The position numbers and the translations under genes are program-made. Positions 1,224 to 8,500 of a stretch of 59,063 nucleotides of DNA are shown piece after piece (position 1 is the first letter of the stretch; each line of letters begins with the position of its first letter). This DNA is from Planctomycetota bacterium (GTDB lineage Bacteria > Planctomycetota > Planctomycetia > Planctomycetales > Planctomycetaceae), in the NCBI GenBank assembly GCA_003670925.1, contig QWQG01000169.1, positions 1 to 59,063 on the forward strand, in the 5' to 3' direction. The notes beneath the pieces are model-generated. The model was not told the DNA's origin and made no database searches. It worked only from the letters and a program-made list of their open reading frames with translations.

Positions 1224-3428
1224 TCAGGGCAGCGGTTCAGAAAATGTCAGCAGATCCTTGAAGTAAGTGCGAAAACGTCCGCCTCGCAGACTTCCGGAAA
1301 CCACCAGATCTCCCTCCGGCTCATCTGCGGCTGTGACCTGAAGCCATTTCCCACCCGTGATTCGGGCATCGTCAAGAAACATTCCCCGTGTTCGGGCGGT
1401 CTTCAGCGGGTAGGCGGATTCCCACAAAATTCTGGGTTCGCGACCGCTTTCCAAGACGATGGCGCGGCGATTGGTGTGGTCCGTGCGTTCCAAACCCAGC
1501 AACCAAGTGCTCGGCAAGGGCTCCTCGAATTCGCCAACCATGCGGCTCAGGTCTCCGTAACAAAACGCGAGAATTTCATCGTCCTGCCGCCGTTCAAGGA
1601 AAGCCCGCGCGACACCGTCCTGCAGCTGATCACAGACCGGCAGATTAGACGAATGCCGTTTCACACTGGATCGCCAAGCGGCTTCCAAGAAATTCTGCAT
1701 GTCCTGAGCCGGACGGCGGAAGTAGCGACTGACTTCACCGGCGAGCTGCTCCACATTCTCATTTGGTGGTTCAGAAATTGTGCAGCAGTGGGCTAGATCT
1801 AGCAGAAAGTCGTCCATGATCTCCGCGCCAGGATCCAGCGACGGCGGCTCAAACGGCTTACCCGCTGCGGCGTGACACGCTGCGGCGATCACTGCCGGCC
1901 GCTCGGATAAAGGGATCCGCGCCGCCACCTGCAGGCCGTCGAATGCCTGGATCGTGGCGGTGGCCGACATTCCGGCCACAGACTGGAGGAATCCGGCCAA
2001 GGCATTGACCGCCGTTTGCAGTTCATGCTGCTCGGAGTCCGATGGTGTCGTGCGAATTCCTTCCAGCGTTAGACGCAGATCAAAACGCTGTTCGAATCCG
2101 TCACGCCATTTTTGGAGATTGGCTTCGGTCGCGCCATGGATATGACTGGTGAAGAACGCTTCCAGCTGTCTGGCAATCACTTCTCGTTCTTCTCGAGTCA
2201 GCATGGCGGGGTCTGCCAGTTGTAGTCCGACAGATCGGTGATCGGCAAGGCAGCGATAAAGATAGACGCGATCGTATTCACTGCGGAGCGGCAACGCCGT
2301 AATCTGCCGTAGGCCGTTGCGCAGACTTTCGCCGGACATCGGGAAACAGTGAATCAATTCTGCTAGTTCCGCTCCCAGAATCCAGCCCGAACCGCGTTGC
2401 CGAAATCCCGTGCCGTAGATTCCCGCGACTTCTACCCCGATCACAGTCACCAGATCATGCAGGGTGGCAATGGCCTGGCGATCAATTGCATTTTCGATAA
2501 CCTTTTGAGCGCCGACTTTGCCAAGTTCTGTTGCTAGCCACCACGCTCCTAATGTCGCCGGGCTGGTCGCTGACAGCAGTCGTCCGGCATACAGTCCTCG
2601 CGAAAGGTACTTAAACCATGGGGCCGCTTTTTGATACACACCGTAGCTGGCAATCGCCTGTTGCATGTAGCCGTAAAGTTTGTTGACGTTGGAATGCTGC
2701 ACGCTAACGGGAAGCTGCTCAAGTAACACCAGCATATGCAGGCAGATGCGACTGGCGGCCCGCGCCAGTTGATCGAAGCTAGTTTCCAGCAGGGGATTCT
2801 GACTGCTTGGATTATAAATTTTTGCAACCCGTTGCATGAGTTGCAGGGTTTCATCGCGGATTGCATTCACATCCACTTTGTGGTTAACGGTGTAACCGTT
2901 GCGGCGAATTTTTTCGTAGACTCGTTCCGCTTCTGCTTCCAGAAGTTGCCGCACGCTGCGATCCTGTTCGCTCAGCTTCTGAAGTTGTCCCGAGGACTTT
3001 TCTGCATGCATATCTTCGAAGGGGTATTCGAGGAATTCATGAAACCTGGCAAACCGAGATGCCAGATCGCGCTCTCTTGCTTCCAGTCGTTCCGCCCGAA
3101 AAGACAGTTCGGTTTGCAACGCTTGGCGGACGCGATCAAACTCCTGCTGTTGTTCGAGCTGCCGATTCTGTTCGAAGGTCAGTTTCACCCGCAATGCCAC
3201 AATCTCCGGATCGTGATCGCGGAGGCGCGGCCAAAGCCAGAAAAGGCTGCTCTGCCCGATGGCCGCTGCCGCCATCAGAGCCCACCATGCAGGAGTCGCA
3301 GTTTGCAGGCTTGTCACGGTAACACCGATCATCGTGACCGATGCTGAAGTGATCAATGACGCAGCAATCCAGAATCGTCGGCTGGTCATTGAACGTATTC
3401 CCTGCAGCATTGCCGGACGATGAACCAT
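1224..3428 (-). CDS. Hypothetical membrane protein with coiled coil
   Basis: I do not recognise a family. The 734-residue product has two hydrophobic segments near the N-terminus (about residues 20-36 and 46-58), a charged, Gln/Glu/Arg-rich stretch at about 70-130 that should form a coiled coil, and then about 600 mainly helical soluble residues. The C-terminal 100 residues look beta-rich (SGSLRGGRFRTYFKDLL near the end). This suggests an anchored cytoplasmic protein. The start may be the first Met or Met14 (MTSRRFWIAA), which gives a more usual short N-terminus before the first helix. The upstream end abuts repeat copy A (3431-3560). No operon partner is evident. Confidence 0.75.
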   Translation of the reverse strand: MVHRPAMLQGIRSMTSRRFWIAASLITSASVTMIGVTVTSLQTATPAWWALMAAAAIGQSSLFWLWPRLRDHDPEIVALRVKLTFEQNRQLEQQQEFDRVRQALQTELSFRAERLEARERDLASRFARFHEFLEYPFEDMHAEKSSGQLQKLSEQDRSVRQLLEAEAERVYEKIRRNGYTVNHKVDVNAIRDETLQLMQRVAKIYNPSSQNPLLETSFDQLARAASRICLHMLVLLEQLPVSVQHSNVNKLYGYMQQAIASYGVYQKAAPWFKYLSRGLYAGRLLSATSPATLGAWWLATELGKVGAQKVIENAIDRQAIATLHDLVTVIGVEVAGIYGTGFRQRGSGWILGAELAELIHCFPMSGESLRNGLRQITALPLRSEYDRVYLYRCLADHRSVGLQLADPAMLTREEREVIARQLEAFFTSHIHGATEANLQKWRDGFEQRFDLRLTLEGIRTTPSDSEQHELQTAVNALAGFLQSVAGMSATATIQAFDGLQVAARIPLSERPAVIAAACHAAAGKPFEPPSLDPGAEIMDDFLLDLAHCCTISEPPNENVEQLAGEVSRYFRRPAQDMQNFLEAAWRSSVKRHSSNLPVCDQLQDGVARAFLERRQDDEILAFCYGDLSRMVGEFEEPLPSTWLLGLERTDHTNRRAIVLESGREPRILWESAYPLKTARTRGMFLDDARITGGKWLQVTAADEPEGDLVVSGSLRGGRFRTYFKDLLTFSEPLP

Positions 3429-3588: not shown

Positions 3589-3622
3589 AAACGCCAGCGA
3601 GACATTCAGCTCGCTGGCGTTT
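3589..3622 (-). terminator. Rho-independent terminator of the glutathione peroxidase gene
   Basis: Perfect inverted repeat AAACGCCAGCGAG/CTCGCTGGCGTTT with an 8-nt loop, flanked by A and T runs on either side. It lies 66 bp past the gpx stop on the minus strand and could work in both directions. Confidence 0.85.
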
Positions 3623-3687
3623 TCATGAAGTCGCAACACACAGTCGCCTGCAGCTTGCCGTTAAACAATCAATTATTTCATCGTCGC

Positions 3688-4236
3688 TTACTTCTTCAGT
3701 TCGGATTCAATGACACTGACTACTTCAACCGCATCCGGCTTTGTCTTCGTACTGAAGCGACCGGCGACCGTGCCATCCTTACTGATAACGAACTTTTCAA
3801 AGTTCCATTTCACGTCATCTTTGCTTTCGGCATTGGCCTTCAGAAACTTGTACAGCGGCGCCTGTTTTTCCCCGTTCACATCCACTTTGCTCATCATCGG
3901 AAATGTGACTTTGTACTTGTCGGTGCAGAACTTCTGAATGTCTTTTTCTGTGCCGGGTTCTTGGCCGCCAAATTGATTGCAAGGAATCCCAACGACGACG
4001 AGACCTTTTTCTTTGTACTTATCCTGCAACGCCTGAAGCTGTTCGTACTGCGGTGTCGCTCCGCACTTGCTGGCAACGTTCACGACCAGCAGCACTTTAC
4101 CCTTGTACTCGGAAAGTTCGACATCCTTGCCTTCAATGTTTTTGAGCTTGAAGTCGTGAATGGAGTCCGCTGCCATCGAGGTTGTCCCTACTACGCAAAT
4201 GATGCCAAGAGCCAGAGTTTGCCAGAATTTCGTCAT
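3688..4236 (-). CDS. Glutathione peroxidase family protein, exported
   Basis: A thiol peroxidase that reduces hydrogen peroxide or lipid hydroperoxides. The 182-residue protein starts with a signal peptide (MTKFWQTLALGIICVVGTTSMAA) and so should act in the periplasm. Peroxidatic Cys lies in NVASKCGATPQY, the Gln in GIPCNQFGGQEPG and the Trp/Asn in DVKWNFEKFVI, completing the Cys-Gln-Trp-Asn tetrad. KFCTDKYKVTFPM carries a likely resolving Cys, which points to a thioredoxin-type rather than a glutathione-dependent enzyme. The catalytic residue is Cys, not selenocysteine. Monocistronic, with a strong terminator downstream. Confidence 0.95.
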   Translation of the reverse strand: MTKFWQTLALGIICVVGTTSMAADSIHDFKLKNIEGKDVELSEYKGKVLLVVNVASKCGATPQYEQLQALQDKYKEKGLVVVGIPCNQFGGQEPGTEKDIQKFCTDKYKVTFPMMSKVDVNGEKQAPLYKFLKANAESKDDVKWNFEKFVISKDGTVAGRFSTKTKPDAVEVVSVIESELKK

Positions 4237-4489
4237 TTCATTTTCCCCTGAGAAAACCTTACCAAGACGACCGGCAACCGGAACACTTTACAAAAGTCGG
4301 ATACCCGCTTTCCTCACCCGGTGCCGTTACATCGTCGAACTTCGCCGCTATTGTTACCTCCAGTGGCGAATAGGCAAGCGTTCATCTGCTTTGCCGCCAT
4401 CCTCCATCCTTGAATTTTACGGAGACTGCCATAAAACAGGCGGAGTGTCCGGGGATGCTCGGCAGTTTTTCAGGAGTTCACGACAATTC

Positions 4490-5059
4490 ATGTCCAATCG
4501 ATGGGATTTGACTCGCGCGTCGCTGGCGCGGCACTTTTTCCTCGCAACCGTCCTTCAGGCTGGCGTGATTCTGCTGCTGGGCTTTACTTTTGGAGTGGTG
4601 TGCGGACATCCTGAGCCCACGGAAAAGTTGGAGTTGCCGACCGCTTTTCAGTATGGAACCATGTTTCTGGCGATTGGCAGTTGGTGCCTGCACGACGCAC
4701 AGACGAACGTCCGCCGAGAACGCCAACGTCGGTTTCGCATCGCATTGCTGCTGGCCCTGAGTACCGCAGTGTTGTTTGTGTCGGTTCAGTCTTACGGCAT
4801 GTGGGCACTCGTCAAATCCATTTCGCCCCAACTGGAAATGCAGACCAGCATCCACGGAATGGTCATCATGTTCGCGGCAATTCACGCCATGCATTTTATC
4901 GTCGCGCAGTCCATCCTGTTGTGGGTGACGCTCTCAGCCTTCACAGATCGCTACGACCACGAATACTCTTGGGGCGTCACCTTCGCCGCTTGGTGCTGGC
5001 ATGTCCTCGGCATCGTCTGGATTGCCATCCTGTGCATCTTTGCCATCGCTGCCGTCTAG
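4490..5059 (+). CDS. Haem-copper oxidase subunit III-like membrane protein
   Basis: A 189-residue protein with about five membrane helices, resembling the five-helix form of cytochrome c/quinol oxidase subunit III. Family-like features are the two-helix start, the charged loop DAQTNVRRERQRRFR, the HGMVIMFAAIHAMHFIVAQ helix and the C-terminal WCWHVLGIVWIAIL, which matches the WHF-D-VW end of subunit III. The ATG at 4490 is preceded by CAGGAG at 4471. It is an orphan: no subunit I, II or IV gene is in the window. It diverges from gpx across 253 bp. The family call is fairly safe; the partner oxidase is unknown. Confidence 0.8.
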   Translation: MSNRWDLTRASLARHFFLATVLQAGVILLLGFTFGVVCGHPEPTEKLELPTAFQYGTMFLAIGSWCLHDAQTNVRRERQRRFRIALLLALSTAVLFVSVQSYGMWALVKSISPQLEMQTSIHGMVIMFAAIHAMHFIVAQSILLWVTLSAFTDRYDHEYSWGVTFAAWCWHVLGIVWIAILCIFAIAAV

Positions 5060-5141: not shown

Positions 5142-5330
5142 ATGCGTCCGCAAAAAAAACCAAATAACTTCGGCCTATTTGACATGCACGGCAATCTGTG
5201 GGGATGGTGTCAGGATGTGTATTCTGACACTGCTGACTACCAGCAAAATGTCACTGTGACCAATCCTTCCGCCGGCCGTAAATCGACGTATGATTGGGTG
5301 CTACGCGGCGGGTCATGGTGGTACAACGCC
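5142..5330 (+). pseudogene. Formylglycine-generating enzyme/SUMF1-domain fragment
   Basis: About 60 residues match the C-terminal core of the sulfatase-modifying-factor family: NNFGLFDMHGNLWGWCQDVY, then DWVLRGGSWW. The normal N-terminal two thirds and the final R..LGFR segment are absent, and the frame runs on into sequence that is antisense to the GAP1-like fragment. In the usual motif the residues are GNVWEWCQD; here W-E is replaced by W-G. This is a relic, probably cut by a rearrangement at about 5325. Confidence 0.75.
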
Positions 5331-5705
5331 GTCCCAGTGGTCCACGACAACACTTGCGTCAGCCAGCAGCCTTGCCGGGCCGGGAGTCAGATGCACAACG
5401 CTGTCAATCACAATGTGGTGAGCCAGCTTATTGCTGCGACCCGTGTAGTCTTGCCCTGCATCTGCCACCCGCGAAAGAACATGCAGTTTCTTGGCGGCAA
5501 TGCGCATCGTCACATGGGAGTAATTGACAGGGTTCAGCGATGACTGGGGATGATTGAGCGGGAATGCCTGCCGATAGCCGCTCATCGATGCGAGTCGTTC
5601 CGCGATATTCAGGGCCATCCCGGATGTGCTCACGACTGTCCAGAAGCCGCGACTTTCTTGTTTCAGGCCTTTTTCGGCCGATGTGTAAATGATTTCTTCA
5701 ATCAT
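5313..5705 (-). pseudogene. GAP1-like (GTPase-associated protein 1) N-terminal fragment
   Basis: The 130-residue frame begins MIEEIIYTSAEKGLKQESRG and includes NPVNYSHVTMRIAAKKLHVL, SRVADAGQDYTGRSNKLAHH and a terminal W-D-G. From memory this is the N-terminal domain of the GAP1 proteins that accompany a P-loop GTPase in predicted NTP-dependent conflict systems. Full GAP1 proteins are several hundred residues longer, and here the frame ends where the SUMF1 fragment begins on the other strand. With the broken GTPase at 6069-6475 upstream on the same strand, it appears to be the leftover of a once intact pair. Confidence 0.65.
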
Positions 5706-5727
5706 ACGATGTGATCTCCCATGCGCT

Positions 5728-5970
5728 TCACTCTGGCGGTCGCCTTAAGCCGAGAACTTCGGTGCAAAGTTGCCGCAACAGCGGAGTCGTCCCATGCAAT
5801 TCAGTCCATCCGAATATGTATTTCCAGTCCAGTTGTTCATGGTTATCCGCATCTTTTGTTGAACGAGGAATGCTGTACACATTGGTCGCAAGAGCCCCGA
5901 CGAGGACATACTTTACCGAGAGTGATTCGAGTGCCACCAGTGTTCGTCGAACTGCATCAAAGCTGTTCAT
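5728..5970 (-). pseudogene. Nucleotidyltransferase fragment with internal deletion
   Basis: The frame starts MNSFDAVRRTLVALESLSVK and contains YVLVGALATNVYSIPRSTKD-A-D, the nucleotide-binding G-x-[AS] and metal-binding region of small nucleotidyltransferases of the AbiEii/DUF6036 type. It then jumps to LDWKYIFGWTELHGTTPLL, which resembles the C-terminal end of the same family. The roughly 100 residues between are missing, so the protein is about 80 residues and not expected to be active. Its ATG overlaps the end of the small frame at 5957-6100, as in an operon. Confidence 0.6.
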
Positions 5971-6100
5971 TGATTGCATCCAACGGGCGGTAGCGATCCC
6001 CGTCGTCGATCCGCTTGGCGATTTCAAGTCGGCGGAAAATTTCGTTGTTGACCTGTTGTTCATTATACTCAGGGTAGCGCATGCGGATCCTCGTACTCAT
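5957..6100 (-). pseudogene. Small partner of the nucleotidyltransferase, remnant
   Basis: A short frame with RIRMRYPEYNEQQVNNEIFR and RRLEIAKRIDDGDRYRPLDA, charged and helical. Its stop overlaps the nucleotidyltransferase start by 14 nt, so the two were probably translated together. I cannot name a family. The upstream end runs into the broken GTPase-like frame, so the true start has been lost or moved. Confidence 0.4.
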
Positions 6101-6475
6101 GCAACTTGTGGTTGGCGATTGGATCAGCGTCTTCAAAACTGATTCCAAACTTCTGCCCTAAAATGGTTCGAAGCTGCCACAGTGATGCGGACAAGAAATA
6201 AGACTTGCCGGAACTTGGCGAACCCAAAATTGAAAAGAAAGCTAAAGGAAGTTCCCAGACATCACGAGGCAGACTCAGATGACATCGCGGACAAGCCAGC
6301 TCGAGCACGACTCACCTTTCGCATCGATCGCCTGCCCTGAGATGTCGCATTGAGTGGGAAGAAACCGCCGATGTCCTTCCGGCACATTGGGGTCATCCTG
6401 CAGGCTCGGATGTACGGAAATCCATTTCGTATCATACGATGGGAACTAAAACCAGCAGTGTGGACAGGTGATGTT
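6069..6475 (-). pseudogene. P-loop GTPase-like gene with zinc ribbons, frameshifted N-terminal remnant
   Basis: Read on the minus strand it encodes ITCPHCWF, a stop (TAG, bases 6446-6448), then KWISVHPSLQDDPNVPEGHR, RFLPTQCDISGQAIDAKGES-C-S. After a one-base deletion near 6300 it continues ELACPRCHLSLPRDVWEL and FFSILGSPSSGKSYFLSASL, breaking off after FEDADPIANHKLHEYED. Two CxxC ribbons plus a Walker A motif (GSPSSGKS) match, from memory, the GTPase encoded next to GAP1. With one stop, one frameshift and truncation before the rest of the GTPase domain, it is dead. Confidence 0.65.
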
Positions 6476-6479
6476 TGCT

Positions 6480-7369
6480 TGCAGCGATGCGGAGTCCGTG
6501 GACATGTTTGAGGTCACCTCATTCCCAAGCTGGAATATCGGGGTTGCCATGGAACGGAAATTTTTTTAACCGCACGAGAATTGCATGAAGAATCCCCGGA
6601 AAGCCCTCACCCTCGAAACAGTTATGGCAGTTAATTGCACCAAATCGCGGTTACGGGCCGTCAAATTCTGAGAATATGCAACATGATATTAGGTCTTTTG
6701 CGGGCCCACGTGGCGTGTCTCCGTGTTCGCAAAAATTCTAGGTGTGGCTGAATTCACGGCCGAAGCCGAGCGTATCCGGCGACAACTAAAAATCGCAAGC
6801 AATCCCACGCGGGCGAGACACTGGATGTTGGCAACGGCGGAGCCCCGGGTGTTTTGCCACGCTGGGGCAAAAAGGGGCAAGGGCGTGTAAGCGTGTTTGG
6901 TATTCTCGATATCTTCGTCAACCAGATTCAGCGAACATTTTTGTAATCTCTGCGTCTCTTGTTTACGGATTTACAATCGAGGCTGGACAGGCTCGTCAAG
7001 GTCTGCTGAATGTGAGCTATATTTTGGGGCAGGGCAGTGAGCGGGTGAACACACTTGTGTCTCCGGCTGAGTTGGATTGCGGGCTCTCCGGCAGCAATTT
7101 TGGCAATTCGTGGTGAGCATGTGCGAATCTTGCCGGAGAAACTGTGCGGAACGCGGTTGGTAAGGGAGTCACGGGGTGGAGTAGCTTCATTCGGGAAGTT
7201 CTTACAGGGAGTGGCTCGGCATTTGCGGTCAGCACGACTGTCGATCGGGACTTGTTGGCAAACGGCAGCGGTTCGTGCGGCAAATTGAGTGCATAAAAAT
7301 CGCGGTCCACAGCGTGAAGCATGGGATTCGTGAGTTTCAGCGGCAAATGTAAAGGCAAGGGAGCTAGGC
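6480..7369. other. Intergenic region, about 890 bp, no gene recognised
   Basis: Short frames occur on both strands, but none has family features or a convincing start. The stretch borders the decayed cluster and may be further eroded coding DNA. The right-hand part must hold the promoter and leader of the sigma factor gene. Confidence 0.5.
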
Positions 7370-8500
7370 ATGGTCAGCACAAGTCCAATGGTCGATTCAA
7401 AAAGCAACATGTATCAAAACGCTGAAGCACAATCGCTGTTGTCGGGGTTGCCTCTGCAGGGCAGTATTGGTCAAGATTCGCAGCATTTGAATCCTAGTTC
7501 GCGTCATGCTTGGAATTCCGCTGCGGAACGGAATGTCTGTCTGCTTGAGCGTGCCTTATTGGGCGAGAGTGTCGCGTGCTTGGCAAAAGCATTTTCGATG
7601 AGCAAAACGGCTGTGCACGGAGGGCTGATGGAAGCCCGCGTGCACAGGCTGACGGAAGCGGATGTTGCCTACATTGACAGCGACGAATTTCGTCAGCGAA
7701 ATGCGGAAAGCGTGATCTGCGATACGATGCCGGGATTGGATGAGGCGACGGTCGGTCGGGTTCCAACGGGCCTGCCGGGATATCTTGGTGAGTTGTATCG
7801 GGTGCCGTTGCTTACAAAGAAGCACGAGCAGTATTATTTTCGGCGGATGAATTTTCGGAAGTTCCAGTTTTCGGAGCTGCGGAACGAGTTGGATGTCAAT
7901 AAGCCGTCGGCTCGGATCGTATCAAAGCTGGAGTCATTGCTCGCAGAGATCACTGACATAAAAAACCTCTTGATTCGGTCCAATTTGAGATTGGTGGTCT
8001 CGATCGCCAAGCGGTATCTGAAAGCGAATACGGGTTTCTTCGAACTCGTGAGCGACGGCAATATCTCCTTAATCCGGGCGGTTGAAAAATTTGACTATGC
8101 TCGCGGATTCAAGTTCTCAACTTATGCATCGTGGGCCATTCTGAAAAACTTCGCACGATCAGTGCCAGCTGAACAGCAGCGACAGGACCGCTTCCGAACG
8201 GGCAACGACGAAGTGTTCGCGCAGTCGTCGGAGCAGAAAGGTTCATTCTTCATCGATGAGCACATGAATCTGACGCAGCGCGCCGTGATCCAAGAAATGA
8301 TGCAGGAACTTGACGGACGCGAGCAGAAAGTCATCGCTTGCCGCTTTGGCTTAAGTGCGGGGGAACAGCCGGAAACACTCGAGCAGGTTGGCAATCGTCT
8401 GGGGGTCACCAAAGAACGCGTCCGCCAGATTGAAGTTCGCACTTTGGAAAAACTCCGCCGGATCGCAGAACGCCGGGCGTTTGAAATTCCCGGGTTCTAA
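7370..8500 (+). CDS. RNA polymerase sigma factor, sigma-70 family (RpoD-like)
   Basis: A 376-residue sigma factor that directs core polymerase to promoters. Region 1.2 is seen at GYLGELYRVPLLTKKHEQYY; region 2 at LRLVVSIAKRYLKANTGFFE to YARGFKFSTYASWAILKNFA (2.4/2.3 with the melting aromatics); region 4.2 at LEQVGNRLGVTKERVRQIEV. The stretch between regions 2 and 4 is short (about 50 residues), so region 3 is reduced. The first 120 residues hold a helix-turn-helix-like segment (ESVACLAKAFSMSKTAVHGG) that is not usual in RpoD. The ATG at 7370 follows AAGGGAGC. It is probably a group 2 or accessory sigma factor rather than the primary one. Confidence 0.88.
   Translation: MVSTSPMVDSKSNMYQNAEAQSLLSGLPLQGSIGQDSQHLNPSSRHAWNSAAERNVCLLERALLGESVACLAKAFSMSKTAVHGGLMEARVHRLTEADVAYIDSDEFRQRNAESVICDTMPGLDEATVGRVPTGLPGYLGELYRVPLLTKKHEQYYFRRMNFRKFQFSELRNELDVNKPSARIVSKLESLLAEITDIKNLLIRSNLRLVVSIAKRYLKANTGFFELVSDGNISLIRAVEKFDYARGFKFSTYASWAILKNFARSVPAEQQRQDRFRTGNDEVFAQSSEQKGSFFIDEHMNLTQRAVIQEMMQELDGREQKVIACRFGLSAGEQPETLEQVGNRLGVTKERVRQIEVRTLEKLRRIAERRAFEIPGF

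Follow-up and report, generated by a model that had tools for sequence, protein, structure and literature searches.

Remains of a probable DO-GTPase/GAP1-N2 gene cluster upstream of a sigma factor gene in a planctomycete

Passages of Kaur et al. 2020 (Kaur, Burroughs, Iyer and Aravind, eLife, PMC7159879) describe DO-GTPases that have zinc ribbons and are found with GAP1 proteins of type N2, and they class the DO-GTPase/GAP1-N2 combination as a predicted conflict system. The partners given there for GAP1-N2 systems of planctomycetes are FGS or GYF proteins, with FGS as effectors. According to the predicted model in these passages, the GTPase acts as a switch, the threshold at which an effector is released near the membrane is set by GTPase and GAP1 together, and GAP1 couples sensing to this release. 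The whole stretch of DNA analyzed here, the window, is 59,063 nt in length and represents contig C113 of a 5.78-Mb draft genome (G000). The window and its relatives are similar to the described system in that a zinc-ribbon GTPase is followed by an N2-type GAP1 in a planctomycete host, and the intact relatives display the GYF partner that the same passages give for planctomycetes. They differ in that the window copy is broken, the GTPase family falls below the Pfam DO-GTPase2 cut-off, and a gene for a helical protein of ~980 aa, with no Pfam match in two copies scanned, is common in intact loci. The initial annotation had assigned the stretch to a class of predicted conflict systems, and this is borne out, the scraps being the remains of a DO-GTPase/GAP1-N2 locus as that class is described in the passages cited. 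The system is already described, intact copies are common in relatives, and the remnant is another copy of a known predicted system. An immune or self-recognition role is a prediction, made by analogy to the class.

Three GTPase-GAP1 families, labeled X, Y and Z here, are separable by identity in the genus, and the window remnant belongs to family X. The closest complete relatives in the genus are on contigs G011:C264 and G008:C535. They have a GTPase of 505–510 aa, a GAP1 of ~1,000 aa and a 983-aa protein, which is cut by the contig end in G008:C535; G011:C264 also shows a GYF-domain protein next in line. Both GAP1-N2 and GAP1-M are matched in the G011 GAP1, and GAP1-M is present in 5/5 intact relatives scanned. 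An intact cluster would encode a zinc-ribbon P-loop GTPase, GAP1, the ~980-aa protein, which is long and helical, and a protein with a GYF domain. Such clusters are found, e.g., in Rhodopirellula and Stieleria. Among loci from named genomes (the best 80 of 309 by GTPase alignment), GAP1 is found in 75, the ~980-aa gene in 59 and GYF in 42, and these counts are lower limits, with many loci cut by contig ends. Four of the five loci that show no GAP1 end at a contig end. However, locus L231 has no GAP1 despite ~3 kb of downstream DNA, so GAP1 does not lie beside every such GTPase.

Comparison of intact GTPases with Pfam DO-GTPase2 shows that five of six reach 18.3–25.0 bits against a cut-off of 27, and one has no match at E ≤ 0.01; a seventh has no DO-GTPase2 match at E ≤ 0.001. 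The P-loop residues and a DNAGE motif are invariant among 14 aligned relatives. In the PDB, a model of the predicted GTPase fold (pLDDT 80.6) matches the GTPase domain of atlastin best (E = 2.1e-6), followed by EF-Tu-like GTPases, with low TM-scores of 0.17–0.28 on the query among the 50 matches listed. A search of solved structures by sequence gave E = 0.042 at best. The third gene of intact loci (L065:10320–13271 and relatives), which encodes the ~980-aa protein, gave no Pfam match when two copies were scanned. In its model (pLDDT 80.7, pTM 0.40), most of the chain is helical and the C-terminal part is rich in beta structure, from which we infer that the protein would be a scaffold, and a hydrophobic helix near residues 369–397, located by eye, suggests a membrane anchor. 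PADLOC matched 0/10 proteins, NCBIfam gave one weak match below its cut-off in seven proteins, and no DNA match was found in phage and plasmid collections.

Four minus-strand scraps are found in the window between two plus-strand genes. The left flank is a COX3-like gene (positions 4493–5059, PF00510). The right flank is a sigma-70 family factor gene (positions 7370–8500, PF04545 and PF04542) that has orthologues across the genus. It is preceded on the plus strand by a leader at positions 6894–7369, which by blastn is common to the sister genome G001 and partly to G014 and G012. Positions 6923–6999 of the leader are conserved in G001 and G014 and, at 76–77%, in G012, G004 and G005. This segment may represent a promoter or an RNA element; an Rfam scan of the window gave tRNAs only and none at 6923–6999. 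Other features of the region are a short stretch (6722–6811) that recurs elsewhere in G000 at 74–88% identity (C112, C55, C19, C86 and C25) and a short repeat (3630–3674) with many matches in G004, G014, G015 and others, adjoining a perfect hairpin read off the sequence at 3592–3619. A 734-aa protein encoded at 1224–3428 has counterparts in G001 and G014, with no Pfam match at E ≤ 0.01 and no NCBIfam match.

The GTPase remnant is at positions 6088–6505 on the minus strand and corresponds to ~140 codons from the beginning of a gene for a zinc-ribbon P-loop GTPase, identified by homology to relatives. It has, in order, a start codon, the zinc-ribbon region, a TAG stop codon, a one-base gap and the P-loop, and it breaks off at 6088. 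Homology reaches the start codon at 6503–6505, which is further 5' than had been annotated. The zinc-ribbon cysteine pairs and the P-loop are both present, and the region of the DNAGE motif falls in the lost part. The aa identity to the GTPases of G011 and G008 is 75–76% over 72 residues, and the nt sequence identity to a longer copy in G014 (contig C219) is 85% over ~400 bases. The initial annotation of a minus-strand P-loop GTPase is therefore correct, as are its two disruptions: the TAG is at 6446–6448, and the missing base, previously placed near 6300, is near 6305 when read off the alignment with the G014 copy. The frames of 79, 63 and 111 aa that represent the GTPase and nucleotidyltransferase remains have no Pfam match at E ≤ 1, and these pieces were identified by comparison with relatives and not by Pfam.

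The GAP1 remnant is at positions 5313–5705 on the minus strand, where a GAP1-like N-terminus had been proposed. It matches the Pfam GAP1-N2 domain (PF20013) with E = 8.8e-24 and 84.6 bits against a cut-off of 24, which confirms the proposal. Approximately 127 of ~1,000 codons are kept, i.e., the GAP1-N2 domain only, with GAP1-M and the rest lost. The G011 and G008 GAP1 proteins share 63–65% identity with the remnant across 128 residues, and a truncated G014 copy shares 88% across 109 residues. The sole GAP1-M (PF20014) match in G000 is on contig C48 and not in the window. A search of the rest of the G000 assembly for the family X ~980-aa gene and for GAP1 sequence past residue 130 found neither. 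A locus that is split rather than deleted was considered and rejected, the missing GAP1 and ~980-aa gene parts being absent from the assembly.

The GAP1-N2 piece has an open frame of 130 codons with an ATG and, upstream of it, GGAGA, a plausible ribosome-binding site, and because of this it may not be fully dead. It would then be a small stand-alone protein, e.g., one that serves the intact GTPase-GAP1 locus on C48 as a decoy or regulator. The GAP1 of G014 is likewise cut, at about residue 109, and dN/dS between the two pieces is about 0.12, but this constraint may stem from the time when the gene was whole. The ends of the two pieces also differ and look accidental (an FGE scrap in G000, a transposase-like scrap in G014), and the counts of seven amino-acid-changing and five silent changes on the G000 branch, compared with six and 14 on the G014 branch, suggest relaxation. 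Retention as a stand-alone protein is considered very unlikely. The window copy has lost its function, with a stand-alone GAP1-N2 piece as the most that could be left.

Remains of a nucleotidyltransferase and a small partner gene are located between the GTPase and GAP1 scraps, also on the minus strand. The C-terminal part of the partner gene (positions 5957–6090) is fused to the GTPase break point. It was recognized by aa and DNA homology to a longer copy on contig C32 of G001, with 79% aa identity over 48 residues and DNA homology that stops at 6090. The longer copy is weakly similar to the Rv0078B antitoxin, with a PF18993 match below the cut-off. The nucleotidyltransferase remnant (positions 5728–5973), of DUF6036 type by BLASTP against an intact relative, consists of 43 residues from the N-terminal end fused in frame to 26 from the C-terminal end, with ~114 residues between them lost. 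The similarity to DUF6036 nucleotidyltransferases with a small partner gene is that two intact relatives match PF19502 above the cut-off and that the partner weakly resembles the Rv0078B antitoxin; one copy has weak AbiEii similarity. The window differs in that a complete nucleotidyltransferase with an adjoining partner gene is not present, only the gene ends, and these are lodged within a GTPase-GAP1 locus.

The nucleotidyltransferase segment is much more similar between G000 and G001 than its surroundings. At positions 5844–6090, 232 of 247 bases are identical, compared with 343 of 472 in the nearby non-coding sigma leader, and the difference between piece and leader has a Fisher p of 3e-12 (blastn counts 15/247 vs 134/511). 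The dS value, which rests on 72 codons, is 0.096 compared with 0.58–0.86 for four neighboring gene frames, i.e., the scrap is six to nine times less diverged. The pair is also present in 0/80 intact loci (best 80 of 309 found by GTPase alignment). On the strength of the low divergence and this absence, the nucleotidyltransferase would be a later intruder in the GTPase-GAP1 locus, and the pair appears to have arrived after the split of the G000 and G001 lineages or to have been exchanged between them. The earlier annotation was correct that scraps of a nucleotidyltransferase pair lie between GTPase and GAP1, but that the pair belongs to the same gene combination is not supported. As a regular cluster member it was rejected, being absent from all 80 loci (best 80 of 309) and far younger than the rest. 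In a more far-reaching proposal, which we hold to be hardly likely, the site would be a live turnover point for conflict genes at which, in two or more lineages, the pair recently entered a GTPase-GAP1 locus by transfer or interspecies recombination and contributed to its death, with GAP1-N2 kept as a decoy or regulator of the intact locus.

On the plus strand, a fragment of an FGE-sulfatase (SUMF1) gene with both ends missing (positions 5148–5339) runs tail to tail into the GAP1 remnant. The fragment itself is as annotated: its 64 residues match positions 169–227 of the 255-position PF03781 profile with E = 3.5e-11. Neither this E-value nor that of the GAP1-N2 match can be ascribed to chance. 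The fragment is alike to FGE-sulfatase genes in its profile match, but its membership in the cluster is doubtful. FGE was found in 2/80 GTPase loci (best 80 of 309) and in 2/32 loci of a smaller survey, the latter two being loci where the GTPase and GAP1 queries matched nothing; 14 of the 32 loci had no GTPase or GAP1 match and are uninformative on the GTPase/GAP1 family. FGE genes are common, with 4–34 matches per genome in each of 18 genus genomes, and the suggested link of SUMF1 to the system is weak. SUMF1 as a regular cluster member is not supported by the 2/80 (best 80 of 309) and 2/32 counts. Both known GTPase/GAP1 remnant sites of G000, the window and contig C7, adjoin FGE sequence. 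With respect to a linked effector or variable gene, the FGE scrap adjoins the remnant in the window and no GYF gene was seen at the site. The scrap is not specific, and its relevance to the cluster is doubtful.

Comparison of the same site in relatives shows different states. In the more distant G012, whose sigma protein is 76% identical, the COX3 frame ends at position 1249 and homology to the sigma leader starts at 1270, with nothing between, and the site is empty. In G001 (sigma 83%), a GTPase remnant is found upstream of the sigma gene, then a longer nucleotidyltransferase pair and an S9 peptidase gene; the gpx and COX3 genes are on another contig. The G001 remnant keeps GTPase C-terminal sequence but has lost ~616 bases relative to the G014 copy, and GAP1 is gone. 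It overlaps the G000 remnant by only 39 bases, of which 34 are identical. A NUDIX-TIR-NB-ARC-TPR protein of the immune-type STAND class is encoded ~3.4 kb from this remnant (G001:C32, L053:4271–8278). In G014 (sigma 83%) the site is unreadable because the contigs break off within about 800 bases of the sigma gene, 150 of COX3, 0 of the GTPase gene and 120 of the truncated GAP1 gene. The G014 GTPase adjoins a release-factor gene, and a second GTPase piece on another contig is 98.8% identical in DNA over 324 bases. With contig ends falling within or close to its GTPase and GAP1 pieces, the G014 locus may be more complete than it looks.

An intact GTPase-GAP1 locus at this site, which the initial annotation had proposed to look for in relatives, was found in 0/9 genus relatives with at least 1 kb of sequence upstream of the sigma gene. 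Seven of the genomes with this much upstream sequence (G004, G005, G007, G009, G010, G011 and G013) have no match there to any of the pieces of GTPase, GAP1 and nucleotidyltransferase from the window. Of 112 GTPase/GAP1 locus records, of which 105 are distinct, none has a gpx, COX3, sigma or 734-aa gene within the record at E ≤ 1e-10. The suggested loss of an island from the site is thus upheld in part: the copy is broken and its missing parts are absent from the assembly, but no intact locus was found at the site.

These comparisons bear on whether a complete cluster was ever present between COX3 and sigma. The GTPase, nucleotidyltransferase, GAP1 and FGE pieces might have come separately to a rearrangement-prone site as mosaic debris, in keeping with the empty site in G012, the different left neighbors in G001, the far younger nucleotidyltransferase piece and the abundance of FGE genes. 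However, the GTPase and GAP1 scraps are in the usual order and orientation, each from its own start codon, and G001 has the C-terminal sequence of the GTPase at the same site. We regard a separate arrival of the pieces as improbable. G001, G014 and most of the other relatives are draft genomes, and misassembly or strain mixture may affect the site in such genomes. An assembly that joins strains with and without the locus could be reflected in five X-like GTPase/GAP1 fragments in G014, G002 and G013 that reach a contig end or come to within ~120 bases of one, as expected at variable or repeated loci. The window scraps are internal to a 59-kb contig and carry point disruptions, and a different remnant is present at the same site in another genome (G001), and we give an artefact of this type very little credence.

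The divergence of the scraps is informative on timing. Compared with G014, the GAP1 and GTPase scraps have dS values of 0.47–0.83 and dN values of 0.02–0.12, and four living gene frames of the region have dS values of 0.55–1.01 and dN values of 0.04–0.16 (this set omits the antisense frame 3625–4251, and the COX3 frame used includes an upstream extension). Since dS is like that of living genes and dN is low, the scraps have probably been inherited, and been under constraint, through most of the G000–G014 divergence time. When changes are polarised with four outgroup copies, leaving out 32 unpolarised changes, 16 changes on the G000 branch alter an amino acid and 13 are silent, compared with nine and 28 on the G014 branch (Fisher p = 0.02). 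The signal is uneven, in that on the G000 branch one part of the GTPase has no amino-acid-changing and six silent changes and the other part has nine and two. These polarised counts, together with a silent divergence that resembles that of living genes, suggest that death of the GTPase/GAP1 locus was probably recent.

The stretch most probably represents a recently dead copy of a DO-GTPase/GAP1-N2 cluster that was ancestral upstream of the sigma gene, was later entered by the nucleotidyltransferase pair and was then deleted differentially. Judging from the shared remnant, the ancestor of G000 and G001 would have had the cluster upstream of the sigma gene. The DUF6036 pair would later have been inserted near the GTPase end of the locus, and deletions, the stop codon and the frameshift would then have stripped most of the locus, differently in each lineage. 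This reading builds on direct observations of scrap identity, the disruptions, the different deletions, the empty site in G012 and the absence of the missing parts from the assembly; the order of events and the ancestral position are deduced, and so is the immune role. Opposed to it are the failure to find an intact locus at the site in the relatives and locus records searched, the GTPase family scores of at most 25.0 against the DO-GTPase2 cut-off of 27, the overlap of only 39 bases between the G001 and G000 remnants, the draft state of the genomes and the open frame of the GAP1-N2 piece.

Copies of the three families are scattered in the genus. In G000, X and Y are present as fragments and Z is apparently intact on C48; in G001, X is a remnant and both Y (C83) and Z (C31) are apparently intact. 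Family Y in G000 is represented only by a 54-residue GTPase fragment (C7:21956–22114, L120:4457–4630) with 87% identity to the Y copies of G005 and G001. At the DNA level, 211 bases can be aligned with the Y locus on G001:C83. A 405-aa FGE-sulfatase frame starts about 110 bases away from the fragment. Searches of 18 genus genomes with the GTPase, GAP1 and ~980-aa genes gave no match in G003, G007, G010 and G012, and in G009 and G016 the matches were all weak and confined to the zinc-ribbon end of the GTPase; G007 has a divergent GAP1-N2. Contigs C219, C69 and C190 of G014, C1058 of G002 and C45 of G013 end inside or within about 120 bases of X-like GTPase/GAP1 sequence, which would fit a locus that is repeated or differs between strains. 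The scattered X, Y and Z copies show the birth-and-death pattern expected of defence-like genes, which is no proof of function. The window illustrates the loss of a predicted conflict locus, and this loss can be given a rough relative date.
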